In this document: positions 5,703-23,796 of the stretch, piece after piece
How positions within the stretch are numbered: the stretch's first letter is position 1
How the letters are laid out: every line of letters starts with the position of its first letter
Origin: Ulvibacterium sp.
GTDB lineage: Bacteria > Bacteroidota > Bacteroidia > Flavobacteriales > Flavobacteriaceae
NCBI RefSeq assembly: GCF_028285715.1
Contig: NZ_JANQOO010000035.1
Span: forward strand, 62,001-126,000
Reading direction: 5' to 3'
Length of the DNA: 64,000 nucleotides
Position numbers and translations under genes: made by a program
Notes under the pieces: generated by a model
The model's database searches: none
What the model was told of the DNA's origin: nothing
The model's input: only the letters and a program-made list of their open reading frames with translations

Positions 5703-5733
5703 TTTCATTATATGGGAATTAGCTTTATTTTTG
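5703..5733 (+). promoter_or_regulatory. Predicted promoter of the ebo operon
   Basis: TATTTTTG at 5726-5733 matches the Bacteroidota -7 consensus TAnnTTTG exactly. TTTC at 5703-5706, one mismatch from the -33 TTTG, sits 19 bases upstream, the usual spacing. The predicted transcript would start near 5740, about 80 bases before eboA. Confidence 0.45.
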
Positions 5734-5819
5734 ATGATGTTTGGGCAAAATGGTTTGCTTGACAGAAGAAGTGGTAGCAACCCCATGGACTACCGATTAC
5801 CTTTAAAATAGGTGGTTTT

Positions 5820-6674
5820 ATGCAGTTAAATGACGTTGGCGAAAAGCTGTCAAGAATTATTGGGAATACTATTGATGCGGAAGCCCATGATTGGTTGGAG
5901 GAAAAGATCCGAAAAATTATCCGTGAAGGTTCTGCCCGTGATATGTACATGACCTATAGCCTTATTCCTTCAAAGGTTTACCTTCAGGATATCCAAAGTA
6001 TGGGTTACGGTAACGATTTGGAGGATTACTTACGGGTTCAAAAAGCGAACATCCAGCAAATTTCGAGAATTCACCTATTGATCAGCGTATTGAACGCCGA
6101 TATGGAATTTTTTACGCCTAAGGTGGCCAATATCATTCAAGTAGCGGATACCGGGGAGTTGGAAACCTTTTTGAAATTCTTGATTTTGTTGCCCAATCCG
6201 GAGGCGTACAAAACCCAAGCGGTGGAGGCGTTGCGGACCAATGTATCCACAGTTTTTAACGCCATTTCCCTGAATAACCCTTATCCTGCATTGTTCTTTG
6301 ATGAGCAACAATGGAACCAGATGTATCTCAAAACAGCTTTTATGCAAGGGGATTTGAGTGCAATACTGGATATTGACAAGAGGGCGAACAAAGAATTGGC
6401 CCGCATTATTTCCGATTATGCCCACGAACGATGGGCGGCCTCCAGGGATATCGACCCCTATTTTTGGCGTCCGGTTTCCGGATTCCTGAATAATGGGCTT
6501 TTAACGGACATGGAGCGCTTGTTGGAGAGTGCCAATTGTATGGAGAACAGGGCGGGAGCCTTATGCTGTTATCATTCGGATAAGCCCGAGGCCAAGAAGT
6601 TGTTGGCAGGTTATCCCGGTTTGCAGGAGCAGATTACAAATAAAATACTGAGTTGGAAAACCTTAAAAGATTGA
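5820..6674 (+). CDS. eboA: EboA family metabolite traffic protein
   Basis: First gene of a six-gene ebo cluster. The 284-residue protein is soluble and mostly helical, with no signal peptide. It resembles the EboA family, whose biochemical activity is unknown; identification rests on overall sequence character and on the diagnostic gene order eboA-B-C-D-E-F that follows. In the cyanobacterium Nostoc punctiforme the ebo genes are needed to move a scytonemin precursor to the periplasm; in Bacteroidota the metabolite is not known. A predicted promoter lies 90-115 bases upstream. The stop at 6674 is two bases before the preferred eboB start, so translation is probably coupled. Confidence 0.85.
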   Translation: MQLNDVGEKLSRIIGNTIDAEAHDWLEEKIRKIIREGSARDMYMTYSLIPSKVYLQDIQSMGYGNDLEDYLRVQKANIQQISRIHLLISVLNADMEFFTPKVANIIQVADTGELETFLKFLILLPNPEAYKTQAVEALRTNVSTVFNAISLNNPYPALFFDEQQWNQMYLKTAFMQGDLSAILDIDKRANKELARIISDYAHERWAASRDIDPYFWRPVSGFLNNGLLTDMERLLESANCMENRAGALCCYHSDKPEAKKLLAGYPGLQEQITNKILSWKTLKD

Positions 6675-6676
6675 AT

Positions 6677-7585
6677 ATGGAAGAAAAAATGATGTTTATT
6701 GACTCACATGTTCATATGTCGTCCAGGACCACGGATGATTATGAAGCTATGGCAGAAGCCGGAGTTGTGGCGGTTATAGAACCTTCTTTTTGGTTGGGAC
6801 AGGCACGTACCCAAGTAGGTTCATTTCAAGATTATTACAGCAGTTTGGTAGGTTGGGAGCCCTTTAGGGCCAGTCAATTTGGTATACAACATTATTGTAC
6901 CATTGGTCTAAACTCCAAGGAAGCCAATAATGAAGCCTTGGCGGAAGAAGTAATTGAGTTATTGCCCTTATATCTCCATAAGGAAAATGTAGTAGCCATA
7001 GGGGAAATAGGGTACGATGACCAAACCCCTGCGGAGGATAAATATTTTCGGGTTCAATTGGAAATGGCCAAGGAATTGGGAATGGTAGTTCAGGTGCATA
7101 CGCCGCATCGCGATAAGAAATCAGGTACCATCCGAAGTATGGAGGTATGTTTGGAACATGGTCTGGACCCCGCAATGGTCGTTATTGATCATAACAATGA
7201 GGAAACGGTGCAAGAGGTACTGGATAGGGGTTTTATTGCGGCCTTTACCATCTACCCCAAGACAAAAATGGGGAATGAACGCATGGTAGAAGTAGTCAGA
7301 AAATACGGTAGCACGAATATCATTGTGGATAGCTCGGCAGATTGGGGCGTTAGTGATCCATTGGCGGTCCCCAAAACCGGAAACCTAATGCTGAAACGTG
7401 GTATTGCGAAAGAGGATGTGATTAAGACCTGTTATCAAAACGCCTTGGATATTTACGGGAAAAATGGAAAGATGAAGGAGTCGGATTGGTTGACCCCCAA
7501 GGGTATTGACCAGACCAAATTATACAATGACAACAGCGTGCTACGCGGTCAGGTCCCTAAGGTGGATTCGGATAAAATCGTGTAG
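6677..7585 (+). CDS. eboB: EboB, TatD-like metal-dependent hydrolase
   Basis: A TatD-type amidohydrolase-fold protein, predicted cytosolic. Metal-ligand motifs of the family are all visible: H-V-H near the N-terminus (FIDSHVHMSS, residues 11 and 13 from this start), the bridging Glu in V-A-I-G-E-I-G-Y-D, then V-Q-V-H-T-P-H, V-V-I-D-H-N and V-D-S-S-A-D-W-G. I chose the ATG at 6677, two bases after the eboA stop; the frame also has an ATG at 6653 that would overlap eboA by 22 bases, and a later one at 6689. The substrate is unknown; TatD relatives include nucleases and small-molecule hydrolases, and the ebo setting favours a small molecule. It abuts eboC directly, with no intergenic base. Confidence 0.85.
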   Translation: MEEKMMFIDSHVHMSSRTTDDYEAMAEAGVVAVIEPSFWLGQARTQVGSFQDYYSSLVGWEPFRASQFGIQHYCTIGLNSKEANNEALAEEVIELLPLYLHKENVVAIGEIGYDDQTPAEDKYFRVQLEMAKELGMVVQVHTPHRDKKSGTIRSMEVCLEHGLDPAMVVIDHNNEETVQEVLDRGFIAAFTIYPKTKMGNERMVEVVRKYGSTNIIVDSSADWGVSDPLAVPKTGNLMLKRGIAKEDVIKTCYQNALDIYGKNGKMKESDWLTPKGIDQTKLYNDNSVLRGQVPKVDSDKIV

Positions 7586-8476
7586 ATGCGAAACATTTTA
7601 AAGGGATACCTGCGGTTGGCCCGTCCGGCGAATTTACCCACGGCTGCCGCTGATATTTTGGCAGGTGTCGCAATTGCAGGGGCGCTCTCCCATGACTTTA
7701 TCGACTTTGACGCAAAAACCAAAACGATGCTTTTGGTTTTTGCATCGGTCTTTTTATATGCGGGCGGGGTGGTCCTTAATGATGTATTCGATTTGGATCT
7801 GGACAAGGTAGAGCGTCCGGAAAGACCAATTCCCAGTGGACTGATTCCTTTGAAATCGGCGGCCGTTTATGGAACATTTTTATTGATACTGGGTATACTG
7901 CTGGCTTTTTTTTGCGGGCCGTTCAGCGGTTTCATTTCCATCGTTTTGGCTTTTTTCATCGTCCTTTATGACTCGTTTTCGAAAAAGGATGGTCTTCTGG
8001 GCCCTTTGAACATGGGATTATGCAGAGGATTGAACCTTATTTTGGGAATGTCTATTTTGGGAGGGGCTGCCCAGTGGTGGTATGCCGCAATTCCTTTGGT
8101 ATATATCTTTGCGATTACGCTCATAAGTAGGGGCGAGGTGCACGGAAATAATAAGAACCACATCATTTGGGCAGGAGTATTGTATAATCTAGTTATCTTA
8201 GCTGTTATCATCTTAATTATGTCCCAAACCGATAACATACTGCAGGCAGTTCCTTTTTTGGCGCTCTTTGCTTTTTTGGTCCTTAAGCCTTTGGTTCGTG
8301 CATACCACACAAATTCTCCGGAAAACATAAAAAAAGCGGTAATAGCCGGGGTACTTTCCCTAATCGTCCTAGATGCTTCCTTGGCCGTCGGGTTTTCTGT
8401 TTGGTGGTATGGTCTTTTGTTATTATTATTACTGCCTTTATCTATATTTTTGTCCAAGCTTTTTGCCGTTACCTAA
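7586..8476 (+). CDS. eboC: EboC, UbiA-like membrane prenyltransferase
   Basis: An integral membrane protein of 296 residues with about eight or nine hydrophobic helices and the UbiA-superfamily signature. The first Asp-rich motif is N-D-V-F-D-L-D-L-D (residues 65-73), followed by R-P-x-R-P-I-P-S-G, which binds prenyl diphosphate through Mg2+. The second motif region (Y128, D129, then N142, R147, N150) is less canonical than in UbiA or COQ2. UbiA enzymes join an isoprenoid chain to an aromatic or sugar-like acceptor. Here a prenylated carrier or product is a reasonable guess but unproven. The start follows the eboB stop immediately and eboD follows after nine bases, so it is firmly inside the operon. 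Confidence 0.88.
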   Translation: MRNILKGYLRLARPANLPTAAADILAGVAIAGALSHDFIDFDAKTKTMLLVFASVFLYAGGVVLNDVFDLDLDKVERPERPIPSGLIPLKSAAVYGTFLLILGILLAFFCGPFSGFISIVLAFFIVLYDSFSKKDGLLGPLNMGLCRGLNLILGMSILGGAAQWWYAAIPLVYIFAITLISRGEVHGNNKNHIIWAGVLYNLVILAVIILIMSQTDNILQAVPFLALFAFLVLKPLVRAYHTNSPENIKKAVIAGVLSLIVLDASLAVGFSVWWYGLLLLLLLPLSIFLSKLFAVT

Positions 8477-8485
8477 ACCAAACCC

Positions 8486-9652
8486 ATGCATTCAAAATTT
8501 ATAGAACAGTCCTTTGCCGTACCGTATGCGTATAAATTACATTTTACGCAAAGGCTGTTTAGTACCGATAATACCTTGTTCAGGGATATTTTTGATGAAT
8601 ATAAAGTGAATGATACGGTAAAAGCACTTTTTGTTCTTGACAAGGGTGTTCATGAATATCATCCTGAACTGCATAAGGAGATTAAAGACTATTGCAGTAA
8701 GTATCCTGATACCATACAATATACCGGAAGTTTGATCATAGCCGGAGGGGAGCAGTCTAAAAATGATTATGGGAATGTCACTTCCGTTTTGGAGAAAATC
8801 AATACGAACGCTATATGCCGACATTCCTTTGTGGTAGTCATAGGTGGGGGTGCCGTGATAGATATGGTCGGCTATGCCGCAGCGATTGCACACCGCGGGG
8901 TAAAGTTGATCCGCGTTCCTACCACCGTGCTTTCCCAGAACGATTCCGCGGTGGGGGTAAAAAACAGCATCAACAGCTTTGGCAAGAAAAACTTTCTGGG
9001 CACTTTTGCGCCACCCTATGCTATAATCAATGATTCGGATTTTCTAAAAACCCTGGAACATAGGGATTGGATAGCAGGAATAGCCGAAGCCATAAAAGTA
9101 GCCTTGATCAAGGATAAAAAGTTTTTCAATTACCTTGAAGATAAGGCCGAAAAATTGGGGAATAGGGATATGGCCGCCATGCAAGATGTGATTTATAAAT
9201 GCGCCGAAATGCATATGCATCATATTGCCCGTGGGGGCGACCCCTTTGAAAGTGGTTCTTCCAGACCCTTGGACTTTGGCCATTGGGCCGCCCATAAACT
9301 AGAGCAGATGTCCAACTACAACCTTAGACATGGTGAGGCGGTGGCAAAGGGAATAGCGCTGGATGTAACCTATGCACGGCTAATGGGCCTTATATCCGAA
9401 GATACCCAAAAACGTATTTTGGCCGTTATGCGAAAAATTGGGCTCGATGTACACATTCCCGTGGAAACTGAAAAGGAAATACAGGAATTATTGCAAGGAA
9501 TTGAGGAATTTAGGGAGCATTTGGGAGGGGAGCTTTGTATCACCTTAATCTCTGAAATTGGAAAAAAGCTTGATGTCAACAAGATAGATATAGAATCTAT
9601 GCAACATGCCATTACGGTTCTAAACGACAGTTGCAAAATAAAAATGGACTAA
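8486..9652 (+). CDS. eboD: EboD, 3-dehydroquinate synthase-like sugar phosphate cyclase
   Basis: Sugar phosphate cyclase superfamily, 388 residues, cytosolic. The NAD-binding G-G-G-A-V-I-D (120-126) and H-R-G-V-K..V-P-T-T segments are clear. The three zinc ligands expected from dehydroquinate synthase are present: E201, H266 (in D-F-G-H) and H282 (in R-H-G-E-A-V). Two usual DHQS motifs are altered: G-G-K reads G-V-K (157-159) and L-N-F-G-H reads L-D-F-G-H. This suggests a cyclase with another substrate rather than the shikimate-pathway AroB; in this superfamily such changes separate DHQS from cyclitol-forming enzymes. The product is unknown. It may supply a cyclic polyol headgroup for the EboC prenyltransferase, which is speculation. 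Confidence 0.88.
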   Translation: MHSKFIEQSFAVPYAYKLHFTQRLFSTDNTLFRDIFDEYKVNDTVKALFVLDKGVHEYHPELHKEIKDYCSKYPDTIQYTGSLIIAGGEQSKNDYGNVTSVLEKINTNAICRHSFVVVIGGGAVIDMVGYAAAIAHRGVKLIRVPTTVLSQNDSAVGVKNSINSFGKKNFLGTFAPPYAIINDSDFLKTLEHRDWIAGIAEAIKVALIKDKKFFNYLEDKAEKLGNRDMAAMQDVIYKCAEMHMHHIARGGDPFESGSSRPLDFGHWAAHKLEQMSNYNLRHGEAVAKGIALDVTYARLMGLISEDTQKRILAVMRKIGLDVHIPVETEKEIQELLQGIEEFREHLGGELCITLISEIGKKLDVNKIDIESMQHAITVLNDSCKIKMD

Positions 9653-9657
9653 CCAAA

Positions 9658-10854
9658 ATGGATGTAAACGGAACTCATCAGCTTACCTATTGTACCAATA
9701 TCCATCCTGGATCAAATTGGGAGAGCACCTTTACTAGTTTAAAGGAATTCGTTCCGGGCATCAAGGCAAAGGTGTCTCCCGATCGACCTTTTGGACTAGG
9801 CCTGCGTTTGTCCAACAAGGCCAGTGAGGAACTTGATGAGGCCAGTCATTTGACGGAATTCAAAGGGTGGTTGGAACGCCATAGTCTTTACGTTTTTACG
9901 ATGAACGGATTCCCCTATGGCAATTTCCATGGTGAACGGGTAAAGGAAGAGGTACATGCTCCGGATTGGACCACACGGGAAAGGGTTACCTATACTAAAC
10001 GTCTTTTTGAGCAGTTGGCCGAATTACTTCCCAGTGGAATGTCCGGGGGAATTTCTACCTCGCCGATCAGTTACAAATATTGGTATGCTACCAAAGACTT
10101 AAAAAGAAAGGCTTTTGAAACAGGGGCGAGACATCTATCCGAAATTGTTTTGCAGCTTTACGACCTGGAGTCCGGTACCGGTAAATATTTGCATCTGGAC
10201 CTAGAACCGGAACCCGATGGTCTTCTGGAAAACAGCGAAGAAGTACTTGGTTTCTTTGCAGATTATTTGCTCCCGATAGCTATTCCAGTCCTTCAGGATA
10301 CAATCCGTGTTGACGAAGCTGAGGCGGAGAGATTAATTAAAAAATATATAACAGTATGCTACGACATTTGCCATTTTTCCTTGGCCTATGAAGAACCGGA
10401 ATATACTTTTCAAAAGTTTGCCAAGGAAGGAATCCAAGTGGGAAAGATTCAAGTTAGCGCCGCTCTAAAAATTCTTTTCGATGAAAGGGATCAAGACGCG
10501 ATTTGGGCATCCCTTTCCCATTTTGATGAACCGACCTATTTACATCAAGTTACGGAAAAAAAGGAGGATGGGAAGGTGAAGACCTATAACGATTTGCCTA
10601 TAGTTTTGGAGGAGAAAAACGATTTTACCGAATTAAGGGCCCACTTTCATGTTCCGATTTTTTTGGAGCGTTTTGATACCTTATTTTCTACCCAGGACCA
10701 TATCGTAAAGGTGATCGACTATCTCAAGGAACATTCCGTTTCCGAACATCTGGAAATTGAGACCTATACCTGGGATGTGCTCCCTAAGGGGTTAAAACGC
10801 GATTTATCGGAATCGATAATTCGGGAAATCAACTGGTTAAAGGAAAGAATGTAA
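9658..10854 (+). CDS. eboE: EboE metabolite traffic protein, TIM-barrel type
   Basis: EboE family protein with the family's typical opening T-Y-C-T-N-I-H-P-G and a sugar phosphate isomerase/epimerase-like TIM-barrel character, including His, Glu and Asp residues that could bind a metal (for example L-D-L-E-P-E-P-D and C-Y-D-I-C-H-F). No signal peptide. I prefer the ATG at 9658, five bases after the eboD stop; an in-frame ATG at 9631 would overlap eboD by 22 bases. The reaction is unknown. EboF starts four bases after its stop. Confidence 0.83.
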   Translation: MDVNGTHQLTYCTNIHPGSNWESTFTSLKEFVPGIKAKVSPDRPFGLGLRLSNKASEELDEASHLTEFKGWLERHSLYVFTMNGFPYGNFHGERVKEEVHAPDWTTRERVTYTKRLFEQLAELLPSGMSGGISTSPISYKYWYATKDLKRKAFETGARHLSEIVLQLYDLESGTGKYLHLDLEPEPDGLLENSEEVLGFFADYLLPIAIPVLQDTIRVDEAEAERLIKKYITVCYDICHFSLAYEEPEYTFQKFAKEGIQVGKIQVSAALKILFDERDQDAIWASLSHFDEPTYLHQVTEKKEDGKVKTYNDLPIVLEEKNDFTELRAHFHVPIFLERFDTLFSTQDHIVKVIDYLKEHSVSEHLEIETYTWDVLPKGLKRDLSESIIREINWLKERM

Positions 10855-10858
10855 TCCC

Positions 10859-12238
10859 ATGCAAAAGACGGTGGTGGTTAATGTAGTGGGACTGACCAAA
10901 CGACTTATTGGAGAACATACTCCTTTTATAGCATCCTTTTTGGCAAAAGGAAAATCAACATGTATTCAACCTGTGCTTCCTGCTGTTACCTGTTCCGCAC
11001 AATCCACCTATCTCACTGGGAAATACCCTTCAGAACATGGTATCGTTGGTAACGGATGGTATTTTAAGGACGAATGCGAGGTGAAATTTTGGCGGCAATC
11101 CAACAAGTTGGTCCAAAGCGAAAAAATCTGGGACACGCTTAAAAAGCAAGACCCGAATTTTACGAGCGCCAATCTATTTTGGTGGTATAATATGTACGCC
11201 AATACGGATTACAATGTAACGCCACGTCCCAATTACTTGGCGGATGGAAGAAAGATACCCGATATTTATTCGCACCCTTCGAGCTTACGCGATACCCTGC
11301 AGGGGGAATTGGGAACGTTTCCGTTATTCCATTTTTGGGGCCCTAAGACTTCTATAAAGTCCAGCCAATGGATAGCGGATGCCACGCTAAGAACGGATGA
11401 ACTTTATAATCCTACGCTTACGCTGGTCTACCTTCCCCATCTGGATTACAACCTGCAACGCTATGGTCTTAATTTTGACATTATATCAAAGGATTTACAG
11501 GAGATTGACGCCGTGGTCAAGCAATTAGTGGAACACTATCGGAAGCAAGAAGCGAATATTATCTTGCTTTCCGAGTATGGAATTACAAACGTTAACCGTG
11601 CGGTACACCTGAATCGAATACTTCGAAAAGCGGGTTACGTTAACATTCGCATGGAAAGAGGATTGGAACTTTTGGATCCCGGTGCGAGCAAGGCCTTTGC
11701 CGTGGCGGATCATCAGATTGCTCATGTATATCTCAATGATAGCTCTATCAAATCCAAAGTACGTGGGATTTTGGAAAAAGTGGAAGGTGTAGAAAACGTA
11801 TTATCCGAAAAAGAAATACAGGAAGCACATTTAGATCATGACCGCTGTGGCGATTTGGTGGTAATAGCGGACAAGGATTCTTGGTTTACCTATTATTTTT
11901 GGTTGGATGATGCCAAGGCCCCGGATTTTGCCCGTATGGTTGACATTCACAAAAAACCGGGATACGACCCTGTGGAAATGCATACGGACCCCAGGGATAA
12001 ATGGGTCATGGCCAAGGTAATCGGTAAACTTGTTAAAAAGAAATTAGGCTTCCGAACGGTAATGGATATTATTCCTTTGGATGCAAGTCTAATAAAAGGT
12101 TCACATGGCAGGGTTCCTGAACATACGGATGACTATCCCATTTTTATTACGAACAACACTTCAGCGAACTTCCATGAACAAATACCACCTACCGAAGTCT
12201 TTCAACAATTGCAAAATCACCTTTGCGCTGATCATTGA
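10859..12238 (+). CDS. eboF: EboF, alkaline phosphatase / phosphodiesterase-like protein
   Basis: Alkaline-phosphatase superfamily protein of the nucleotide pyrophosphatase/phosphodiesterase branch, 459 residues, without a signal peptide. The nucleophile Thr is kept at T44 in P-A-V-T-C-S-A-Q-S-T, and the distal His at 416 in G-S-H-G-R. Several expected zinc ligands differ: the first Asp is N8 (V-V-N-V-V-G), D-x-x-x-H reads D196-x-x-x-Q200, and the S-D-H-G motif reads S-E-Y-G (238-241). Either the metal site is remodelled or only one site is filled. Its role in the cluster could be hydrolysis of a phosphodiester intermediate, but activity is not certain. It is the last ebo gene; the next gene follows 109 bases later on the same strand with no strong terminator in between. 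Confidence 0.85.
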   Translation: MQKTVVVNVVGLTKRLIGEHTPFIASFLAKGKSTCIQPVLPAVTCSAQSTYLTGKYPSEHGIVGNGWYFKDECEVKFWRQSNKLVQSEKIWDTLKKQDPNFTSANLFWWYNMYANTDYNVTPRPNYLADGRKIPDIYSHPSSLRDTLQGELGTFPLFHFWGPKTSIKSSQWIADATLRTDELYNPTLTLVYLPHLDYNLQRYGLNFDIISKDLQEIDAVVKQLVEHYRKQEANIILLSEYGITNVNRAVHLNRILRKAGYVNIRMERGLELLDPGASKAFAVADHQIAHVYLNDSSIKSKVRGILEKVEGVENVLSEKEIQEAHLDHDRCGDLVVIADKDSWFTYYFWLDDAKAPDFARMVDIHKKPGYDPVEMHTDPRDKWVMAKVIGKLVKKKLGFRTVMDIIPLDASLIKGSHGRVPEHTDDYPIFITNNTSANFHEQIPPTEVFQQLQNHLCADH

Positions 12239-12347
12239 TACTGCCTTAGGCATTGGAAGTCCATTATTTTTTTATTTTTAAGGGATGGGCTTTATCCGAA
12301 TAAAGATAAATTCCCGCTTCCAAGAACCGTTTCAACACAATAAAAAT

Positions 12348-15300
12348 ATGGGACTGCTAATCAAGACCAAGGAAAGATGGTATTCACGAAAAAGTAACTT
12401 TGCCCAATACATCCTTCGGACTTGCGTTTTTTGGGCCTTCCTAACTATGCTCGGTTGTGGTTCGGAGGTTATCGAAGAATCTTGGAGCTATGAAATAGAT
12501 TTTGGGGACGAGAATCCTCAAGGCACCCTAAATTTGGCAAAATCCCAAGGTAACGATCGGGCATCGTTAGTTTCCTTGGATTGGGGAACATTCAATCTCG
12601 AAAATGTTTCCATTACATCGGACCATTTTTCGGCGAATTTTGAACTTTTTGGAAATGAGGCCAAGTTGGAAGGTACCTTTACGGAGAATAGTTTTTCTGG
12701 AGCACTCAGAATGGATGATGAGAGTTTTCCATTTAAGGCTACAAAGCTCTCCGATGAGTTTTTTAAAATTGATCGCTCCAATATTGCCTATGTACTTTCC
12801 GAATCGGATCTTTCGGAATCCGAAATTAACATAGACCATGCAGGAATCATAGCGAGCGCGGATCGGGAAGGATACAAAAGAGGTGAACGGATTTATTCCG
12901 CCAATTGTATCAACTGCCATGGAACGGAAGAGGTAGAAGGTTCGATCCCATTGTCCACCAAGTTTTGGGAACAATCGTTACAAACGGGTAGCGACCCTTT
13001 CTCCATGTACCAGACCGTAAGCCGGGGTTATGGTTCCATGCCGCCGCAACCAACATTAACACCTCAGGAAAAATACGATGTCATTTCCTATATACGCCAT
13101 AAATATATCAAGGAAAACAAAACGGAGACCTATGTCGCGAGCTCCCCGGGCTATTTGGCAGGTTTGCCGAAAGGAACTTCAAGAGGTCCGGAAGCCAAAC
13201 CCTACCAACCGTGGTCGGACATGGATTATGGAGACTTTTTGATCAACACCTATGAATTGGTCGATGAGGAAACCGGTCCGGAACGGTATCATTCACCAGG
13301 GCCGACCCCATATCCCGATGAGGATTACAGCAAGAATAATTTTGCCTACAAGGGCATTGCCATACGTTTGGACCCAGGTGAAGGGGGAGTATCCAAAGGC
13401 AAGGCCTGGATGTTATTTGATCATGACCTAATGCGTGTTGCCGGGGGATGGACCGGAGCGGGGTTTATAGACTGGGATGGGATTCTTCTGAATGACAAAC
13501 ATGAGACCTATCCCCGGACCATCGGGAAACTTCATTTTGAGACCCCGGTAGGCCCCGGATGGGCCAATCCCGAGACCGGTTCTTTTGAAGACCCGAGATT
13601 TCGGGCACGGGATGGTAGGGCTTTTGGACCATTACCCAAAGCTTGGGCAGATTATAAAGGCCTCTATCACTATGAAAATCATAGCATTATTTCCTATACC
13701 ATCGGAAATACAGACATTCTGGAAGAATTAGGCATGTTGGAACGGGATGGGGAAACCATCTTTACCCGAACGTTGAATATTGGGCGTTCCAACCGTGAGT
13801 TAAAAATGAAAGTGGCACCAGTAACGAATAAGGTGGCCCTTGCCGGCAAGGGTGGGGTACTGGGAGAGGAAGAAGGGTACATAATACTCAAGGTACAACC
13901 TGGAATTGCGTTGAATCTCAAGCTTTTTATCGCCGATTCGGGAGTAATGGACTTGGATAATTTGGCCGCTTCAAGCCCCCCGGAATCCTTGACTCCATAT
14001 ACCTTGGGCGGTCCCTCACATTATCCTGAGGAAATCAAAACCGTGATCACCACAGGAAATGAGGATGGGCTTTTTGCGGTAGATCAATTGACTCCACCTT
14101 TCGACAATCCATGGGCCTGTAGGATGAAATTAAGTGGTATTGACTTTTTGGAAGATCCGAATAAAGCTGTGGTCTGTGCAACGGATGGTGATGTATGGTT
14201 AATTGAAGGGCTTACCGCTAATACGGGACAACTAACATGGCAGCGAATTGGCTCGGGTCTTTTTCAACCGCTGGGTATCAAAGTCCTTAATGGTAATATC
14301 TATGTAATCTGTAGGGACCAATTGGTGTTGTTGCATGATTTTAACAGAGATAATGAAACCGATTTCTACGAAAGCTTTAATCATGACCATCAAGTAACCG
14401 ATCATTTCCATGAGTTTGCCATGGGGCTACAGGCCGATGAACAAGGCAATCTCTACTATGCTAAAAGTGGCCGTCATGCAAGGGAGGCTTTGGTACCCCA
14501 ACACGGTACCCTGTTAAAAGTGAGTAGGGATGGTTCCCGAACGGATATCATTGCCACTGGTTTTAGGGCGGCCAATGGGGTATGTATTAATCCAGATGGC
14601 AGTTTTTTGGTCACTGATCAACAAGGGTTTTGGAATCCAATGAACCGTATCAACTGGGTTGATGGAAAAGGTAAGTTTTACGGTAATATGTGGGGATATG
14701 GCCCACCCAAGGACACGACCAGGGTAGCCATGGAACAACCTATGGTCTGGGTAGATATGCAATTTGATCGTTCCCCATCCGAACTCTTATGGGTGGATAG
14801 TGAAAAATGGGGTCCATTAGATGGAAGTCTGTTGAGTTTCTCTTATGGTTATGGCAAGATTCAGTTGGTGCTTCACGAAAAAGTAAAGGGCCAGATGCAG
14901 GGAGGGGTTATTGATTTGCCCGGGGTCAAATTTTTGACGGGCGTTATGCGCGGAAGGTTCAACCCCGGTGATGGGCAATTATATGCTTGTGGCATGTCGG
15001 CCTGGGGTACCAACCAAATGTTACGGGGCGGAGGACTTTACCGGATCCGATATACCGGAAAACCGTTCACACTTCCCATCGGGCTTAAGGTAGCAACTTC
15101 ATCCGTTCAATTGGCCTTTGACCAACCTTTGGACCAAAACATAGCCAAGGACCTTGGGAATTATGGGATAAGGACTTGGAACCTTATTAGAAGTAGTAAA
15201 TATGGCTCTGATCGTTATAACGAACTCACCTTGGACATCTCCAAAGTGGAACTACTTAATGATGGGAAAACCGTAAAGCTTTATATTCCGGATATAAAGC

Positions 15301-15413
15301 CTGTGGACGTAATGACTATCGACTACAATTTGGTCTCTCAAAATGGAGCCCCTATACAAGGCACTATTCAGAATACCATACATGCCTTGAGTCCGGAAAA
15401 GGAACCACTTTAG
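12348..15413 (+). CDS. Exported cytochrome c with DUF6797-like and propeller domains
   Basis: Predicted lipoprotein: a hydrophobic stretch ends in M-L-G-C (C37). After a ~130-residue unknown N-terminal region comes a mono-haem cytochrome c domain with C-I-N-C-H (187-191) and a likely axial Met at 231 (G-S-M-P-P). A DUF6797-like region follows (about 265-560), and the rest looks like a beta-propeller of the kind found in planctomycete haem-binding proteins. The likely role is electron transfer linked to oxidation of a sugar-type substrate outside the cytoplasm, by analogy with propeller quinoproteins; no cofactor or substrate is shown. The frame extends to an ATG at 12285, but that would put 57 residues before the lipobox Cys, so I chose the later ATG, which follows the A-rich stretch usual here. 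Confidence 0.8.
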   Translation: MGLLIKTKERWYSRKSNFAQYILRTCVFWAFLTMLGCGSEVIEESWSYEIDFGDENPQGTLNLAKSQGNDRASLVSLDWGTFNLENVSITSDHFSANFELFGNEAKLEGTFTENSFSGALRMDDESFPFKATKLSDEFFKIDRSNIAYVLSESDLSESEINIDHAGIIASADREGYKRGERIYSANCINCHGTEEVEGSIPLSTKFWEQSLQTGSDPFSMYQTVSRGYGSMPPQPTLTPQEKYDVISYIRHKYIKENKTETYVASSPGYLAGLPKGTSRGPEAKPYQPWSDMDYGDFLINTYELVDEETGPERYHSPGPTPYPDEDYSKNNFAYKGIAIRLDPGEGGVSKGKAWMLFDHDLMRVAGGWTGAGFIDWDGILLNDKHETYPRTIGKLHFETPVGPGWANPETGSFEDPRFRARDGRAFGPLPKAWADYKGLYHYENHSIISYTIGNTDILEELGMLERDGETIFTRTLNIGRSNRELKMKVAPVTNKVALAGKGGVLGEEEGYIILKVQPGIALNLKLFIADSGVMDLDNLAASSPPESLTPYTLGGPSHYPEEIKTVITTGNEDGLFAVDQLTPPFDNPWACRMKLSGIDFLEDPNKAVVCATDGDVWLIEGLTANTGQLTWQRIGSGLFQPLGIKVLNGNIYVICRDQLVLLHDFNRDNETDFYESFNHDHQVTDHFHEFAMGLQADEQGNLYYAKSGRHAREALVPQHGTLLKVSRDGSRTDIIATGFRAANGVCINPDGSFLVTDQQGFWNPMNRINWVDGKGKFYGNMWGYGPPKDTTRVAMEQPMVWVDMQFDRSPSELLWVDSEKWGPLDGSLLSFSYGYGKIQLVLHEKVKGQMQGGVIDLPGVKFLTGVMRGRFNPGDGQLYACGMSAWGTNQMLRGGGLYRIRYTGKPFTLPIGLKVATSSVQLAFDQPLDQNIAKDLGNYGIRTWNLIRSSKYGSDRYNELTLDISKVELLNDGKTVKLYIPDIKPVDVMTIDYNLVSQNGAPIQGTIQNTIHALSPEKEPL

Positions 15414-15466
15414 CCTAAGTATAGATTTCCCTGCAAAAAAATGGTTGGCTTATGATAGAAAAGGGT

Positions 15467-15497
15467 TTTGAAGGCACTTTCAAAATCTGTACTTTAA
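15467..15497 (+). promoter_or_regulatory. Possible promoter of the 15522 cytochrome gene
   Basis: TTTG at 15467-15470 is followed after 19 bases by TACTTTAA (15490-15497), a partial match to the Bacteroidota -7 consensus. The spacing is right but two -7 positions differ, so this is tentative. Confidence 0.3.
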
Positions 15498-15521
15498 ACC
15501 TCCACGGAATAAACCAAAAAA

Positions 15522-18125
15522 TTGATTCGTAGGAGTTTTTACCACGTAATATCCTCACTGCAACTTGCCTTTAATTTGAGCATAATTTGCACTGTGGTAT
15601 TCTTTGTTTCCTGTGCAGGAGAGCCCTTATCAAATAAGGGTATTATTCTCCATGATCCCAATCTTTCCATACAATTGCTTGCAGAACATCCAAGCGTTAA
15701 GACGCCGATAGGGATGGCTATTGATGCAAGGGATGCCGTCTACGTTTTGGAATCCCACACCCATACTCCTCCAGATGACTATCAAGGACCGAAATTTGAT
15801 CTGATAAAAAAATCGGTCGACGAAAATGGTGATGGTATCCCAGAGAAATGGACGGTTTTTGCGGATAGTATAGAAGATGGTATGAATCTGCATTACGATT
15901 TGGAGCACGGTTTGTTTTTGACCACTAAAAATGGTGTATTCCAATATCTTGATCAGGATAAAAATGGTGTAAGTGATTCGAAAAAACAGCTAGTTGCCAT
16001 GGTAGAACCTCAAAATGTCTACGATCATGCGGGGATTTTAGGACTGGCCATTGGTGAAGATGATTGGCTCTACGTCTCAAGGGGAAATGTAGGGGGAAAC
16101 CCTTGGACTATCCAGGGAACCGATGGTTCGCAAATCGAGGGATACGGTGATGGTGGTAATGTTTTTCGATGTAAGCTTGATGGTAGCCAATTGGAGGAGA
16201 TAGCCACCGGTTTTTGGAATCCGTTTGACTTAAAGTTCAATGGAGAAGGTCGACTTTTTGTAACCGATAACGACCCTGATAGCCGCGGCCCAAATCGATT
16301 GATCGAAATTGTACCTGGCGGGGATTACGGATACAAGTCGGTATATGGCGGAAGCGGTATTCATCCTTTTTCTTCATGGAATGGGGAGTTACCGGGAACA
16401 TTGCCTTTTTCCGCTCCTTTAGGAGAGGCACCTTGCGCCATGATCGATGCGAGTTTTACTAATTTTGGAGACTCATACGCTTCTCAGATGTTGGTGAATA
16501 TTTGGGAGGAGAACAATATGGTTCATATTCCTTTGGACCAAAATGGTTCCTCTGTAAAAGGTATTCCTGAGGTTTTAATTCAGGGAGATTCCTCTTTTCA
16601 TCCCGTTGCCTTGGCTACAAATAGTAGGGGAGATTTGTTTATCACCGATTGGGTCTTACGGGAGTATCCCAATCACGGTAATGGGCGTTTATGGAAAGTA
16701 AGTTCCAAATCAGTTACCGCAAAACAACCTTATTCCGGCCCTAAAATCAATAGATTTAAAAAAGATACCAGAAGCATAGAACAACTTATTACGGACCTCA
16801 AACCAAAGGACCCTTTTGAATTGGCTGTGACCCGGCATTTCTTGGCAAAAAATGCAGGGTTGGAAGAGTTACTTCCTTTGGTAGAAAGTAATGATTCCCA
16901 CCTGCGCTTGCAGGGTCTGCTAACCCTATTTAAGGTAAAGGAAAATCTGAATAGAACGGTTTTGCTTTCTTTGTTGAGGGATGAAAATCAGGATATTCAA
17001 AGGATGACCTTGATGTATATCGCTAAAAAAGGCATCACCGAAATGGAGCCTTATCTGTTAAGTGCATTGAGGGAAAGCCAAATACGACCGGAACTTTTCG
17101 AGACTTTTCTGGCAACCGTTCGCCATTTGCAACCCGATTTTATAGATGGCATGAGGAAAAAATCCGGGAGAAGTTCCAAAATTCCAAGAGCGTTGCCCAA
17201 ATCATTTATTGAGGATATTTTGAAGAACCCGATGATAAGCGAGGAAGTAAAGGCCATGGCTTTGCCCTATTTGTCGGATTTTACTTCGAATAGGGAACTT
17301 GTCGCCGAGCTACTTGGGAATGCCGGGAATGGGAAACTTCAGATTGCCCTTATAAAGGCCGTTCAAAAAATACCGGGAGGGGATTTTAGCGATGCCCTCA
17401 GGAACATTGCCTTCAATACTGAGTTCATGCCAATTGCGCGATCAGTAGCCCTTCAGGAGCTGAGTTATAGTACCCAAAAATACATTGATAGGGTAGTGGG
17501 TATGCTTAAGGAAAATGATGAAATCCTGCAATATGCTGCCCTGAAGTATCTCTGTGCGACAGGACTGGACGACGCAACGCAAAGCGGGATTGAAGAATGG
17601 ATAGCAAATTCGAAAAACCAAATTTCGAAAACTGCTTTTTCCATTTGGAATAATTGTGACAAAGATGGTACACCCCCGTTGAATAAAACTGCGTATGCAA
17701 CAGCAACGGGTAACGGAGATTCTGAAATTGGGCGATTGGTTTTTGAAAATAGGGTAGGCCTCTGTACAACTTGTCATAAGATAAACGGTTGGGGAGGGTC
17801 TTTTGGACCTGAGCTGTCCAATATTGGAGGTAGTAAATCCATTTCGCAATTGGTCTCTGCGGTTTTGGAACCCTCATTGGAAATTTCCCCGGAATGGCAG
17901 GGCTGGTATTTGGTAGATGTTAAAGGGACTAGACATACGGGAAGACAGATCGATGTACATCTCAACTATGCCGAGTTGATGAACACGAATGGGGAATACG
18001 ATACATTCAAAAATCCTAGGTCTTATGGGGTCATGGAAAGTTCCTTGATGCCCGAAGGGCTGGAAAGGACCATGACCCCATTGGAATTCAACGATTTAAT
18101 CACATTTCTAAGCCATTTAAAATAG
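15522..18125 (+). CDS. Exported propeller-HEAT-cytochrome c protein (PVC-type haem-binding)
   Basis: 867-residue predicted lipoprotein (lipobox F-V-S-C). Residues ~45-400 are a glucose-dehydrogenase-like beta-propeller with Asp-rich D-x-N-G-D-G loops that probably bind calcium, ~430-720 resemble HEAT repeats, and the C-terminus is a mono-haem cytochrome c domain with C-T-T-C-H (748-752) and the paired S-S-L-M-P-E-G segment that supplies an axial Met. This order is that of the membrane-bound dehydrogenase / haem-binding proteins first noticed in Planctomycetes and Verrucomicrobia. The start must be TTG: an in-frame stop lies at 15510-15512 and no Met occurs before the mature propeller. It is six bases upstream of the Tat-exported TIM-barrel gene, so the two are probably co-expressed. 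Confidence 0.85.
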   Translation: MIRRSFYHVISSLQLAFNLSIICTVVFFVSCAGEPLSNKGIILHDPNLSIQLLAEHPSVKTPIGMAIDARDAVYVLESHTHTPPDDYQGPKFDLIKKSVDENGDGIPEKWTVFADSIEDGMNLHYDLEHGLFLTTKNGVFQYLDQDKNGVSDSKKQLVAMVEPQNVYDHAGILGLAIGEDDWLYVSRGNVGGNPWTIQGTDGSQIEGYGDGGNVFRCKLDGSQLEEIATGFWNPFDLKFNGEGRLFVTDNDPDSRGPNRLIEIVPGGDYGYKSVYGGSGIHPFSSWNGELPGTLPFSAPLGEAPCAMIDASFTNFGDSYASQMLVNIWEENNMVHIPLDQNGSSVKGIPEVLIQGDSSFHPVALATNSRGDLFITDWVLREYPNHGNGRLWKVSSKSVTAKQPYSGPKINRFKKDTRSIEQLITDLKPKDPFELAVTRHFLAKNAGLEELLPLVESNDSHLRLQGLLTLFKVKENLNRTVLLSLLRDENQDIQRMTLMYIAKKGITEMEPYLLSALRESQIRPELFETFLATVRHLQPDFIDGMRKKSGRSSKIPRALPKSFIEDILKNPMISEEVKAMALPYLSDFTSNRELVAELLGNAGNGKLQIALIKAVQKIPGGDFSDALRNIAFNTEFMPIARSVALQELSYSTQKYIDRVVGMLKENDEILQYAALKYLCATGLDDATQSGIEEWIANSKNQISKTAFSIWNNCDKDGTPPLNKTAYATATGNGDSEIGRLVFENRVGLCTTCHKINGWGGSFGPELSNIGGSKSISQLVSAVLEPSLEISPEWQGWYLVDVKGTRHTGRQIDVHLNYAELMNTNGEYDTFKNPRSYGVMESSLMPEGLERTMTPLEFNDLITFLSHLK

Positions 18126-18131
18126 AGATTT

Positions 18132-19145
18132 ATGAGCGATAGAAGAACATTTGTAAAACGTGTGGCCGGAACTGCGGCAGGTATGGCCATAGGTGTACCT
18201 ATACAAAGTAATGCGTCCAATAAGAAAGAACAAGAGTTTCCCGGAGATAAAAAAATCAAGGATTTACCCCAAAATCCACTGGTGCTCTTTGATAATTTTC
18301 ATATAGGAAATCGAAGATCCTATTCCTGGAAGGCAAAATTAGCGGCGGCCGATCATGCAGGTTTTGATGGATTTGAATTTGTTGGGTTAAATACCAAAAC
18401 GGATACCTGGAATGAAGTTAGCGACCTTTTTTTTAAGACACGTTTTAAGGTTATGGGCTTTCATGGTACCACCCAGGCCGTGATAGATGGGAAAGCACCC
18501 GAAATCGATGAGGAAATCGACAAAATTGTAAATAACGTAAAAGCCTTGTCCCAATTGCCCATAAAGCCTTACTACTCTCTGTCCTTGAGTGGACGCGGAG
18601 AGTTAATAGGGGATACTATTGCCGAAAGTGGTTCGGCTAGGGCGGAAGATAGGCATTGGGAACGTGCCTACAAAATAGTCGCTGCTTTTGACAAAGCCTG
18701 TAAATCCTATGGGATAGTTGGTGCACTATACCCGCATACCCATTGGATATGCGACACGCCCCAGTCCGCCTTTAGGATATTGAAAGGCGCCAAAGCGAAC
18801 ACCATAGGCCCTTCTTTTTGCTCCCATCATTGGTATGCCAATGCGGCTTCGGATGAATTGGATGAAGTCCTAAAAAATGACTATATGAAGCGCTTAAATT
18901 ATGTGGTCCTCACCAATGGGATTTTTTCACCGTCCAATTTTCAGGCAGTTCGTTTTAACGAAGGTCAGATAGATATGGCCTGGATGCTTGCCAAAATTTA
19001 TGAATTTGGCTATACCGGTCCCATTTCCACACAAGGATGGCGTATAGGGGGAGACCCCTTGGTAGCCTGCAAACAATTCGTGGATACCATAAGAGCACTT
19101 CGAAAAAGATTTTCAGAACATCCGGAGCTATATCCGTTGATTTGA
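18132..19145 (+). CDS. Tat-exported sugar phosphate isomerase/epimerase-like TIM barrel
   Basis: 337 residues. The N-terminus has a twin-arginine signal: R-R-T-F-V-K at residues 4-9, then a short Ala/Gly-rich core, ending near residue 30. The body is a xylose isomerase-like TIM barrel (AP endonuclease 2 superfamily) with G-F-D-G-F-E-F and H-T-H-W segments that can hold a divalent metal. Export by Tat fits an enzyme folded with its metal inside the cell. It follows the propeller-cytochrome gene by six bases, suggesting that both act on one substrate in the periplasm. Which sugar it isomerises, or whether it is instead a lyase or hydrolase as in keto-glycoside pathways, cannot be told. Confidence 0.8.
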   Translation: MSDRRTFVKRVAGTAAGMAIGVPIQSNASNKKEQEFPGDKKIKDLPQNPLVLFDNFHIGNRRSYSWKAKLAAADHAGFDGFEFVGLNTKTDTWNEVSDLFFKTRFKVMGFHGTTQAVIDGKAPEIDEEIDKIVNNVKALSQLPIKPYYSLSLSGRGELIGDTIAESGSARAEDRHWERAYKIVAAFDKACKSYGIVGALYPHTHWICDTPQSAFRILKGAKANTIGPSFCSHHWYANAASDELDEVLKNDYMKRLNYVVLTNGIFSPSNFQAVRFNEGQIDMAWMLAKIYEFGYTGPISTQGWRIGGDPLVACKQFVDTIRALRKRFSEHPELYPLI

Positions 19146-19313
19146 GCCGTATAATATAGAAAAGGATTTCATTATGGATAGGTAGGCAATTGCTGCCCTT
19201 TAAGTTTTCATCAATCCCAAAGCTTCCCACTAATCGCTATTTTTTATTAAAAAACAGTAATTATTTATTGTTTTTCAATAATTTTTTGTTTTTTTATAAT
19301 TAAATTCGTTGTT

Positions 19314-19958
19314 ATGGTAGTGAAAAATAGAGTTTATGGCGGTGCTCTTATTCAGTTTTTATTATGGGTGCTTAGAATTGGTTTTTTTCTTTTTGCACAC
19401 GGAGTGATTATCTGGCTGATTTACAGCATTTTCATTTTTATTACCGGTGGTCCAACACGTCATATGGATTTTCCCGTGATGTTTTCCTTTGCTGATGAGG
19501 GTTCTCTAAAAACACTTAATGATGATTCGGCCGCAAAGTTTTATATGCGAGGTGCAACCGGAGCAATTATGTCAGATGAAGTTCCTAGAGGGTTTTTGGC
19601 CATATACAGCTTTATAGCCCTTTTGATCAAAGTTCTTTTTCTTCTTTCTTTGCGGTTGACAATTCGTATCCTGGATTCAGTGCGAATAGGAAAATTTTTC
19701 ATTGTGGAAAACGCTATTCGATTAAGGTATATTGGGTTGTTAGGGATTGTGTTTTTTATTCTAGACCGATTGGGAACGGTAATTTCTGCATCCTATTTCA
19801 GTGATAGATTGGAATTTTCTGGCATGGTATTTACAAGTTTTAACCTGTTTTCTTGGGTTACGCTAAACTCTTTATTCATATCTCTTTTCCTTTTAGTCAT
19901 TGCGGAGGCATTCCGTATCGGAGCACAATTAAAGGCAGAAAATGATTTAACTATTTAA
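19314..19958 (+). CDS. DUF2975 membrane protein
   Basis: 214-residue protein with four predicted membrane helices (about 10-40, 95-118, 143-163 and 178-200), matching the DUF2975 family. Genes of this family are very often followed, as here, by a small XRE-type regulator; the pair is thought to sense membrane or other stress, but function is unproven. The upstream 160 bases are extremely AT-rich (T and A runs at 19230-19305), which would suit a promoter, yet no clean box pair was seen. Confidence 0.8.
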   Translation: MVVKNRVYGGALIQFLLWVLRIGFFLFAHGVIIWLIYSIFIFITGGPTRHMDFPVMFSFADEGSLKTLNDDSAAKFYMRGATGAIMSDEVPRGFLAIYSFIALLIKVLFLLSLRLTIRILDSVRIGKFFIVENAIRLRYIGLLGIVFFILDRLGTVISASYFSDRLEFSGMVFTSFNLFSWVTLNSLFISLFLLVIAEAFRIGAQLKAENDLTI

Positions 19959-19967
19959 GAAAAGAGC

Positions 19968-20180
19968 ATGCCCATTGTTGTGAATCTTGATGTTATGTTG
20001 GCCAAACGAAAAATGTCTCTTACCGAGCTTTCGGAAAAAGTAGGGATTACCATATCCAATCTTTCCATTTTAAAGAAGGGAAAGGCAAAGGCTATTCGCT
20101 TCAGTACCCTTCAGGCCATTTGTGAAGTTTTGGAATGTCAACCTGGGGACATCCTCGAATACATTCAAGAACAAGAATGA
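19968..20180 (+). CDS. Small XRE-family regulator (YozG-like)
   Basis: A 70-residue protein that is little more than one helix-turn-helix domain: L-A-K-R-K-M-S-L-T-E-L-S-E-K-V-G-I-T-I-S, a recognition helix, then C-Q-P-G-D-I-L-E-Y. This is the Cro/C1-type fold of the short regulators paired with DUF2975 proteins. It starts nine bases after the DUF2975 gene, so the two form one operon. It is the only DNA-binding regulator recognised in the whole window. Confidence 0.88.
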   Translation: MPIVVNLDVMLAKRKMSLTELSEKVGITISNLSILKKGKAKAIRFSTLQAICEVLECQPGDILEYIQEQE

Positions 20181-20202
20181 TTTTGATGATGTTTTAATGT
20201 CT

Positions 20203-21312
20203 TTATTCCAAATCTTCGATTTTCAATTGTTTTTCCAACCAGTACTCATCTGTTTGAAACCCATAGGCGGAGGGATCATACGCACCAATTAGATTTACAT
20301 TGGCTTTTTCGGGTACTGGCATATCCAACGCCCAAAATACCCCATTGATCAAAAGTCTCCGGACACCTTCGTTCATTAGGTCACTGGAGGAGCCGATAGT
20401 GGAAGTAAAAGCTTTCCCCATTTTGCCATTTGGAATTTGATAACTTTTGGTCCAGGCAATTGGCATTAAGGTCTCGTTAACCGTAATTTCTTTGTCATTA
20501 ACCGTAGCGATTTCATCATCGGTAGGCCTCATGCCATAAAAGACATCGTTCTCATCATATTCTCCTTTTCGATTGACAACCTGGCCTAAGACCACATGCT
20601 CCGCATCTCCTGGCAGAGGTAGTCTAACACCGTATACGTCCGTGGAGCCCCAAATTTCACCGTTTTCGATACCATTGGTAATGGGATGTGATTTGGTTTC
20701 TTCCGGGATAATTCCTCGGGTACTCTGATGTTTATGGTGGCCATGGTGCGTATGCCATTTCTCGCCTAAGACCAAACGACCGAAACCATCGGTCCATTCC
20801 TTCTTTTCCCCATTATAATAATTTCCATAATGTACGTAATTAGAGGTGGAATCCTCTGCGAAATTGAAAGCATGGGTAGCCGTTCTGATGGCAACTATCG
20901 GTTTTCCAGCTTTGAGATAATTGTCAATGGGTTTCATTTGCTCATCCGGTAATGCCCTAAAACGAGTAAATAGCACCATAGCGTCAGCGGTATCCAAGGC
21001 TTTCAGTCCGGGGATATTTTTTAAGTAATTGGCGTCAACTATACCGGGGCTATCCGGACGTTGGGCAAATAACACGGTACAAGTAAACCCGTGATGTTCG
21101 GATAATATTTTGGCCAATTGGGGTAGTGCCTCCTCGGACCGGTATTCCTCATCCCCGGAAACCAGGACTACATGTTTTCCGGTATCACCCTTCCCTTTAA
21201 AGGTCAATAGCTGCTTCGGCGCCTTCACCGTCTCTTCTGTCTCTTTCTTTTCCGTTTTTTGCCCACAGGCCATTAACAGCGCACAGAGCAAAAGGGTAGA
21301 TAGTTTCTTCAT
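20203..21312 (-). CDS. ThuA-like lipoprotein
   Basis: 369 residues with a lipobox at L-M-A-C (C16), so exported and lipid-anchored. The body matches the ThuA (trehalose utilisation) class I glutamine amidotransferase-like fold: V-V-L-V-S-G-D-E-E-Y-R-S near residue 50, D-A-M-V-L-F-T-R-F, and a conserved A-I-R-T-A-T-H-A-F segment. In rhizobia ThuA works with an oxidoreductase (ThuB) on 3-keto-disaccharides, which fits this sugar-redox neighbourhood. No glutamine amidotransferase Cys nucleophile is evident. It lies 88 bases after a TIM-barrel gene on the same strand and is probably the end of that operon. Confidence 0.82.
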   Translation of the reverse strand: MKKLSTLLLCALLMACGQKTEKKETEETVKAPKQLLTFKGKGDTGKHVVLVSGDEEYRSEEALPQLAKILSEHHGFTCTVLFAQRPDSPGIVDANYLKNIPGLKALDTADAMVLFTRFRALPDEQMKPIDNYLKAGKPIVAIRTATHAFNFAEDSTSNYVHYGNYYNGEKKEWTDGFGRLVLGEKWHTHHGHHKHQSTRGIIPEETKSHPITNGIENGEIWGSTDVYGVRLPLPGDAEHVVLGQVVNRKGEYDENDVFYGMRPTDDEIATVNDKEITVNETLMPIAWTKSYQIPNGKMGKAFTSTIGSSSDLMNEGVRRLLINGVFWALDMPVPEKANVNLIGAYDPSAYGFQTDEYWLEKQLKIEDLE

Positions 21313-21380
21313 ATTTATCGATTGACTTTCAAGTTATGTATTTCGGTATTCGTTACCGGTTAAATTTTGTTTTTTCATTT

Positions 21381-21401
21381 ACCACTTACCACTTACCACT
21401 T
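21381..21401. repeat. Three tandem accactt heptamers
   Basis: Three exact copies of accactt run head to tail and reach into the stop codon of the TIM-barrel gene that ends at 21401 on the minus strand. Too short to be more than a slippage-type microsatellite. Confidence 0.8.
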
Positions 21402-22240: not shown

Positions 22241-22295
22241 CTATGTCAATTTAGTACAGTGTTTCAGATTTCAATACCATTTCCTAAAAGAAACA

Positions 22296-22321
22296 ACCCC
22301 CACCTGTAATAGGCAGGGGGT
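22296..22321 (-). terminator. Hairpin after the MFS transporter gene
   Basis: A-C-C-C-C-C pairs with G-G-G-G-G-T, and an inner C-C-T/A-G-G pair closes a five-base loop, with a small bulge. It lies 63 bases after the MFS stop on the minus strand and is followed there by ttgtttctttt, a broken T-tract. It may end or reduce transcription before the TIM-barrel gene. Confidence 0.5.
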
Positions 22322-22383
22322 GATTCTAAATCTCTATTTTTTTGACCAGTCTTGCAATTCCGAATGGCCACTATTTTTTATAG

Positions 22384-23631: not shown

Positions 23632-23782
23632 AAGTTTTTTGTTTAGGTTGATTAAAATCGATACTAAAATTTCAATTCAAGGTATAAGTTTACTTACTTT
23701 TTTGATATTATCATAATTATTTTGCGGTTGTCTTACTAGTTTGTCACAAAATAAAGGCCGCTGTTAAAAAAGCCACAATATT

Positions 23783-23796
23783 TATTTCATGAAATA
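23783..23796. promoter_or_regulatory. Palindrome A, candidate operator
   Basis: tatttcatgaaata is a perfect 14-base palindrome in the MFS/TIM-barrel divergent region. It overlaps the predicted -33 box of the plus-strand promoter (TTTC, 23785-23788), a usual place for a repressor to bind. Confidence 0.45.

Follow-up and report, generated by a model that had tools for sequence, protein, structure and literature searches.

A complete ebo operon in a Bacteroidota genome, and an exchange of EboD for inositol-3-phosphate synthase that suggests a cyclitol ring in the ebo product

The window analysed here is a stretch of 64,000 nucleotides from Ulvibacterium sp. (contig NZ_JANQOO010000035.1), corresponding to C9:62001-126000 of a 5.0 Mb genome that is 99.98% complete. 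What does the ebo locus in this window encode? Open reading frames and profile searches place eboA to eboF, complete and in order, on the + strand at 5820-12238, with spacers of 2, 0, 9, 5 and 4 nt between them. For eboB and eboE the ATG starts were taken; the list of open reading frames offers earlier TTG starts. An earlier note on this DNA, made by a model from the sequence alone, had described a six-gene cluster, complete, in order and nearly gapless, and the coordinates together with the NCBIfam and Pfam profiles bear this out. The features are these:

5726..5733, + strand: TATTTTTG, candidate Bacteroidota -7 element; fits TAnnTTTG and is kept in five of eight relatives; tentatively part of a promoter
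5820..6674, + strand: eboA, predicted all-helical HEAT/ARM-like solenoid; possible scaffold
6677..7585, + strand: eboB, TatD-family metal hydrolase; Pfam TatD_DNase 69 bits (cut-off 27)
7586..8476, + strand: eboC, UbiA-like membrane prenyltransferase; NCBIfam EboC equivalog 385 bits (cut-off 250), Pfam UbiA 71 bits (cut-off 34)
8486..9652, + strand: eboD, sugar-phosphate-cyclase family, by sequence not a 3-dehydroquinate synthase; candidate cyclitol synthase
9658..10854, + strand: eboE, xylose-isomerase-like TIM barrel; NCBIfam TIM_EboE 490 bits (cut-off 250)
10859..12238, + strand: eboF, type I phosphodiesterase / alkaline-phosphatase-like; Pfam PF01663 Phosphodiest 235 bits (cut-off 23)

Gene order, strand, the EboE and EboC equivalog cut-offs and the EboA_domain model (145 bits, cut-off 50) all assign these genes to the ABCDEF-type operon. 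EboA falls short of the stricter EboA_family model (174 bits, cut-off 320) and has no Pfam match. Its structure is predicted with high confidence to be an all-helical solenoid, nearest among the chains listed to HEAT/ARM repeats, with no telling match. EboE scores 20 bits against Pfam AP_endonuc_2, under the cut-off of 31.1. The earlier note had named, as a way in which its reading might fail, the assignment of these genes to other families by profile searches; the searches were run and did not have this outcome. The operon is the ABCDEF ebo operon already published for Bacteroidota (PMC5133447), and as a cluster it is ordinary. The six genes are adjacent and in the order ABCDEF in 59 of 80 relatives, and the cluster is therefore not a chance arrangement. 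The remaining 21 meet a contig end, have eboA distant or out of view (mostly Arenibacter), carry a broken frame, or, in one locus (L074), lack eboD. Conservation is highest for EboB (76 relatives, 76-94% identity, median 86%) and lowest for EboA (68 matches, median 56%), with EboC close to the latter at a median of 60%.

If the operon builds a prenylated compound, what does EboD contribute? EboD scores 556 bits against the PRK06203 model (cut-off 333), which is named '3-dehydroquinate synthase', and most of the solved chains that match it are also 3-dehydroquinate synthases. Both facts favour a second such synthase, one that would feed an aromatic, shikimate-type headgroup to EboC. We hold this to be highly improbable. 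Against the aroB model TIGR01357 EboD reaches only 232 bits where 305 are required. All 37 EboD proteins compared, from Bacteroidota, Pseudomonadota and Deinococcota, keep E201, H266, H282, K159, K168, N169, K204 and H270, a set that includes the zinc ligands and the catalytic lysine; in AroB some of the positions compared bind the metal or 3-deoxy-D-arabino-heptulosonate 7-phosphate. All 37 also differ from four AroB-like proteins at the same places: lysine is replaced by H243, asparagine by D263 and the motif DxKN by F342-x-E344-H345. Thus neither the model cut-off nor the AroB-type residues place EboD within AroB, and the genome has a separate AroB-like gene at G000:C19:105552. The EboD profile extends most widely on the solved chain 4p53, the cyclase ValA (15-389 of 395, 7.1e-52). 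In Ketogulonicigenium two Gfo/Idh/MocA oxidoreductase genes run into eboD, which we count in favour of a cyclitol.

Is EboD present wherever the rest of the system is found? In a census of 72,556 plasmid records, EboD was accepted at E<=1e-50 and inositol-3-phosphate synthase (MIPS) at E<=1e-5. EboE occurs in 47 records. In 29 of these there is MIPS without EboD, in 15 EboD without MIPS, in three neither and in none both; the MIPS lies 4.4-5.2 kb from EboE (29 records) and EboD within 2.5 kb (15 records). Records lacking EboE contain MIPS in 15 cases and EboD in one. The hypergeometric p of 1e-9 for this exclusion cannot be taken at face value, because the Streptomyces plasmids, probably near-identical, enter it as independent records; like the other co-occurrence tests given below, it ignores phylogeny. 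Of the 47 loci 22 were fetched: 12 have MIPS without EboD, seven EboD without MIPS, and three (L195, L199, L200) neither in the stretch fetched. PF07994 and PF01658 confirm the identity of MIPS in the three proteins tested, and the solved chain nearest to one plasmid MIPS is myo-inositol-1-phosphate synthase 1u1i (1.7e-66).

What accompanies MIPS at these loci? Eight of the nine annotated Streptomyces plasmid loci, all without EboD, have MIPS, a SCO3242-family prenyltransferase, a sugar phosphate isomerase (PF01261 in one tested), EboA, EboB, EboE and EboF in that order; the ninth has eboE alone. EboD and MIPS fall in different Pfam families. EboD-family cyclases and MIPS both convert open sugar phosphates to carbocycles, using nicotinamide adenine dinucleotide (NAD). 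Two unrelated ring-forming enzymes thus take each other's place next to the same prenyltransferase and hydrolases, which is best explained by a cyclitol headgroup. The exchange suggests that EboD makes a cyclitol and that the ebo product has an inositol-like ring. It also provides independent support for the earlier cyclitol proposal, which was made from the family of EboD; the exchange of MIPS for a 3-dehydroquinate synthase step would not be expected. We found no paper linking ebo, inositol-3-phosphate synthase and a prenyltransferase in open-licence PubMed Central (PMC), and one may be published elsewhere; the words 'inositol' and 'TMEM220' (the latter a protein considered below) are absent from PMC5133447.

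A gene of the ScyD/ScyE family stands immediately upstream of MIPS-ebo in four of the eight MIPS-bearing annotated Streptomyces loci, above the NF033206 cut-off in L189 and by annotation in L190, L196 and L198. Scytonemin operons carry ScyD and ScyE (PMC6282210).

Might the exclusion reflect lineage only? The actinobacterial ebo-like clusters would then belong to a different pathway that shares EboA, EboB, EboE and EboF, and their MIPS would be uninformative on the product of EboD. The prenyltransferase is indeed of the SCO3242 rather than the EboC type in the three Streptomyces loci tested, 25 of the 29 MIPS records are from Streptomyces, and the MIPS cluster of Neolewinella antarctica (G440) also occurs without ebo. 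On the other hand, the swap on plasmids spans two phyla, since the same pairing is found in Gemmatirosa (Gemmatimonadota) as well as in Actinomycetota; a genome of the phylum sample, G323, has a MIPS-isomerase pair, albeit elsewhere in the genome; the EboE of one Streptomyces cluster, at 412 bits, is above the EboE cut-off; and no record of the 47 has both enzymes. We regard the lineage explanation as unlikely.

What happens in Bacteroidota that lack EboD? Among the 80 relatives and 20 regions from the wider phylum, two clusters have the neighbours of eboD in view and no eboD, L074 (N. antarctica, G440) and L158 (G323). A third candidate, L161 (G324), was rejected: EboD was found beside its EboE, and hence it is neither a counter-example nor a swap. 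In G323 and G440 the EboD query finds only AroB-like matches (6.1e-28 and 1.7e-26), and both genomes have MIPS (1.4e-51 and 2.5e-52); in all six EboD-bearing genomes tested no MIPS match was found. In G323 the gene immediately after MIPS encodes an isomerase similar to that of Streptomyces (191 bits). Across the 24 ebo-positive genomes of the phylum sample, MIPS is present in G323 and G347 only.

Several observations weigh against this reading of the exchange. Nineteen of the 25 Streptomyces MIPS records are equally identical to the query and probably near-copies, which leaves few swap events. The MIPS and isomerase of G440 sit in a Gfo/PIG-L cluster that is also present in the ebo-negative G339, and may serve another inositol pathway instead. 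G347 holds both EboD and MIPS, the latter of another type and beside a nucleotidyltransferase-like gene. Nor is MIPS rare: it occurs in 48 of 296 phylum genomes. A MIPS tree built by a quick method (45 rows; 17 of the 49 phylum matches, plus a few failing the filter, were left out) puts G323, G440 and G339 in one group (95) and the 12 plasmid ebo MIPS in another (100); it does not establish the plasmid type as the source of the Bacteroidota MIPS, and the branches that join at this point are long.

The set of MIPS, Gfo/Idh, isomerase and PIG-L-like genes in Neolewinella and the ebo-negative G339 (L241 and L246), with a glycosyltransferase-like gene in L241, possibly makes a different inositol compound; here 'PIG-L' and 'glycosyltransferase' are names given on reading the sequences and not from profiles.

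Does any other gene regularly accompany ebo? The earlier note had proposed a search for genes that always do so. In Bacteroidota one such gene emerges, though not as a constant companion. TMEM220 (PF15071 in the two proteins tested) lies right after eboF in 66 of the 77 relatives with eboF and readable downstream DNA. Not counted are L020 and L050, which lack eboF, and L057, where too little sequence follows. As dnaX follows in 63 of these 66 loci, this is largely one inherited arrangement. In G004, G038, G051, G228 and G283 TMEM220 lies directly before eboA, and unlinked copies are present in the window genome, G020 and G112. Across 149 genomes of the family, with EboC and TMEM220 scored over the cut-off, TMEM220 is found in 22/22 ebo-positive and 9/127 ebo-negative genomes. 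In the 296 genomes of the phylum, scored by EboE, it is found in 18/24 against 21/272 (by genus, 13/16 against 13/124). As a synteny control miaE is weak, being nearly universal (22/22 against 108/127, p=0.08).

Other counts weigh against so close a tie. TMEM220 is missing from six of the 24 ebo-positive genomes of the phylum sample, persists at the vacant ebo site of three ebo-negative genomes (G034, G039, G128), and is absent from all 22 plasmid ebo stretches, including the one that comes from Bacteroidota. We therefore regard TMEM220 as a candidate ebo component in Bacteroidota that is not strictly ebo-dependent. Human TMEM220 was located in the Golgi, and when it was knocked down both the shape of the Golgi and secretion were disturbed (PMC6979480). 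We found no paper in open-licence PMC that connects TMEM220 with Bacteroidetes, and one may be published elsewhere. In Mycetohabitans a TMEM165/GDT1-family gene (L188:13409-13990) comes after the eboF-like gene.

How might the six proteins work together? We think it rather probable that the operon's product is an isoprenoid-tailed cyclitol, with a ring from EboD and a prenyl chain from EboC, that remains in the inner membrane or passes through it and serves as a carrier. In the order that we infer, the substrate of EboD would be a phosphorylated sugar, probably sedoheptulose 7-phosphate, which it would cyclise to a carbocycle; trimming, isomerisation and dephosphorylation, whether of the ring or of the prenyl donor, would fall to EboB, EboE and EboF; and EboC would attach an isoprenyl chain to the ring at the membrane. 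EboA may keep the soluble enzymes together. TMEM220, a small membrane protein, might in Bacteroidota help to place or move the product, which would act as a membrane-bound carrier or auxiliary in moving a small molecule outward, as proposed for the scytonemin monomer in Nostoc. A role as carrier or auxiliary lipid is favoured because in ebo mutants of Nostoc the scytonemin monomer remains cytoplasmic; eboD was not among the genes tested (PMC6282210). That EboD makes a cyclitol which EboC prenylates at the membrane is the best reading, though not a proven one. The earlier note had read the cluster as a route to a prenylated, perhaps cyclitol-derived compound. This was right in outline, and the exchange strengthens the cyclitol part; the idea itself is an already published hypothesis (PMC5133447, PMC6282210).

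Could the product be a prenylated quinoline instead? EboC would then farnesylate 8-hydroxyquinoline-2-carboxylate (8-HQA) or a tryptophan-derived relative, and the other genes would make or export it. The EboC proteins of three marine Bacteroidota (Maribacter, Zobellia and Algoriphagus) do farnesylate 8-HQA in vitro, 8-HQA being the best of 14 aromatic acceptors, with the product characterized by proton nuclear magnetic resonance (PMC9235831), and the window genome has a match to the tryptophan dioxygenase family. The preference of these EboC relatives for quinoline acids counts against a cyclitol acceptor, with the proviso that the panel had no cyclitol (PMC9235831). So does the fact that an isolated ebo product is not reported in the literature covered. 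Yet a prenyl-quinoline leaves no role for a sugar-phosphate cyclase, or for its replacement by MIPS, and mutation of the conserved R145 left EboC about as active as before (PMC9235831), a result that would be in keeping with a loose surrogate acceptor. Nor does the tryptophan dioxygenase family track ebo: present in 20/22 ebo-positive and 103/127 ebo-negative genomes (p=0.37), it is too common to inform, and the kynurenine pathway was dropped as a quinoline marker. We consider the prenyl-quinoline quite unlikely. The statement in the earlier note that the metabolite is undescribed in Bacteroidota holds in so far as no native product is reported to have been isolated there; it omits the farnesylation of 8-HQA in vitro (PMC9235831).

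A broader and more doubtful proposal starts from the cyclitol reading. The ebo genes might form a modular prenyl-cyclitol lipid system in which the ring is supplied by EboD or, alternatively, by inositol-phosphate synthase with its isomerase, the two cyclases being unrelated and both NAD-dependent; TMEM220 would handle the lipid in Bacteroidota, and human TMEM220 would descend from, or resemble, such a handler.

What drives transcription of the window operon? The earlier note had given the cluster its own Bacteroidota-type promoter, a claim that is half supported: there is a conserved -7 element and no -33. We take TAnnTTTG to be the Bacteroidota -7 consensus. TATTTTTG is kept in five of the eight relatives examined (L006, L131, L013, L014, L010), is represented by TAGTTTTG in L021 and is absent from L009 and L022. 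No -33 TTG lies 17-23 nt upstream of TATTTTTG at 5726. The + strand of the window has 41 matches to TAnnTTTG alone, and a sigma-70 scan found fewer sites than in its shuffles. A promoter at this position is thus weakly suggested.

Where does the operon lie in its relatives? Ebo is usually found between miaE and dnaX, both in reverse orientation, often preceded by ppk. In the window genome this site (L124, G000:C22:139000-151000) contains miaE, TMEM220 and dnaX without ebo, while ebo itself adjoins ppdK and a cytochrome c/DUF6797 gene, a new place common to the other two genomes of the genus. From the ebo-free ancestral site and the new location we conclude that the operon moved or was replaced. 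In G020, likewise, ebo lies apart from an ebo-free miaE-dnaX site. Six genomes of one family (f23; L142, L144, L147, L151, L155, L156) have the cluster divided between two divergently transcribed units, ABC and DEF. Just upstream of ebo, L182 (Aureibacter) and L188 (Mycetohabitans), from different phyla, share a hypothetical gene of about 600 aa and a PF12902 ferritin-like gene. The PF12902 family has been linked with violacein-type chemistry.

Downstream of ebo, at 12285-29500 of the window, are cytochrome c/DUF6797, DUF7133, PF01261 barrels, ThuA, MFS and Gfo/Idh/MocA genes, which look sugar-catabolic; several Pfam matches among the 14 other window proteins scanned are to sugar-metabolism families. 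The window and Arenibacter suggested such a neighbourhood as a general partner of ebo, and this was rejected: sugar-locus genes occur in 4/20 ebo regions and in 5/20 control stretches, the latter from 12 ebo-positive genomes, ten of which also supplied ebo regions. No scytonemin genes were found among the proteins profile-scanned (those of ebo and the 14 others); pigment pathways were not searched systematically.

The nature of the ebo product has been a question since the operon was named in 2016, and ebo is found in several bacterial phyla, algal plastids and scytonemin makers; an ebo cluster of Pseudomonas is linked to nematode resistance (PMC6282210). What is added here is the EboD/MIPS exchange and the association with TMEM220, both leads that need biochemistry. 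The former points to an inositol-like prenyl lipid and to cyclitols as acceptors for EboC, while the latter offers bacterial genetics for a family with a Golgi-resident human member.

How does the window operon compare with known systems? With the ebo operons of Bacteroidota and eustigmatophyte plastids (Yurchenko 2016, PMC5133447) it shares the same six families, the ABCDEF order and a single strand. It differs from most relatives in lying beside ppdK and the cytochrome locus rather than between miaE and dnaX, and in having no adjacent TMEM220. The scy-ebo cluster of Nostoc punctiforme (Klicki 2018, PMC6282210) also has EboA, EboB, EboC, EboE and EboF, and its authors proposed a prenyl-cyclitol carrier; its eboD is located elsewhere, and its ebo genes act in the export of scytonemin, a pathway not seen among the window proteins scanned. 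Ubi-297, the EboC of Maribacter, Zobellia and Algoriphagus (PMC9235831), belongs to the same operon type and was assayed with aromatic acceptors only; the window EboC has 62% identity with that of Zobellia russellii (L021), which is related to the Zobellia used in the assays. The MIPS-ebo loci of Actinomycetota and Gemmatimonadota (L189-L194, L196-L198, L201-L203) share EboB, EboE, EboF and an EboC-like prenyltransferase, of the SCO3242 type where it was tested, and EboA was matched in the 11 actinomycetotal loci and not in L203. In these loci, MIPS and a PF01261-type isomerase take the place that EboD occupies in the window.

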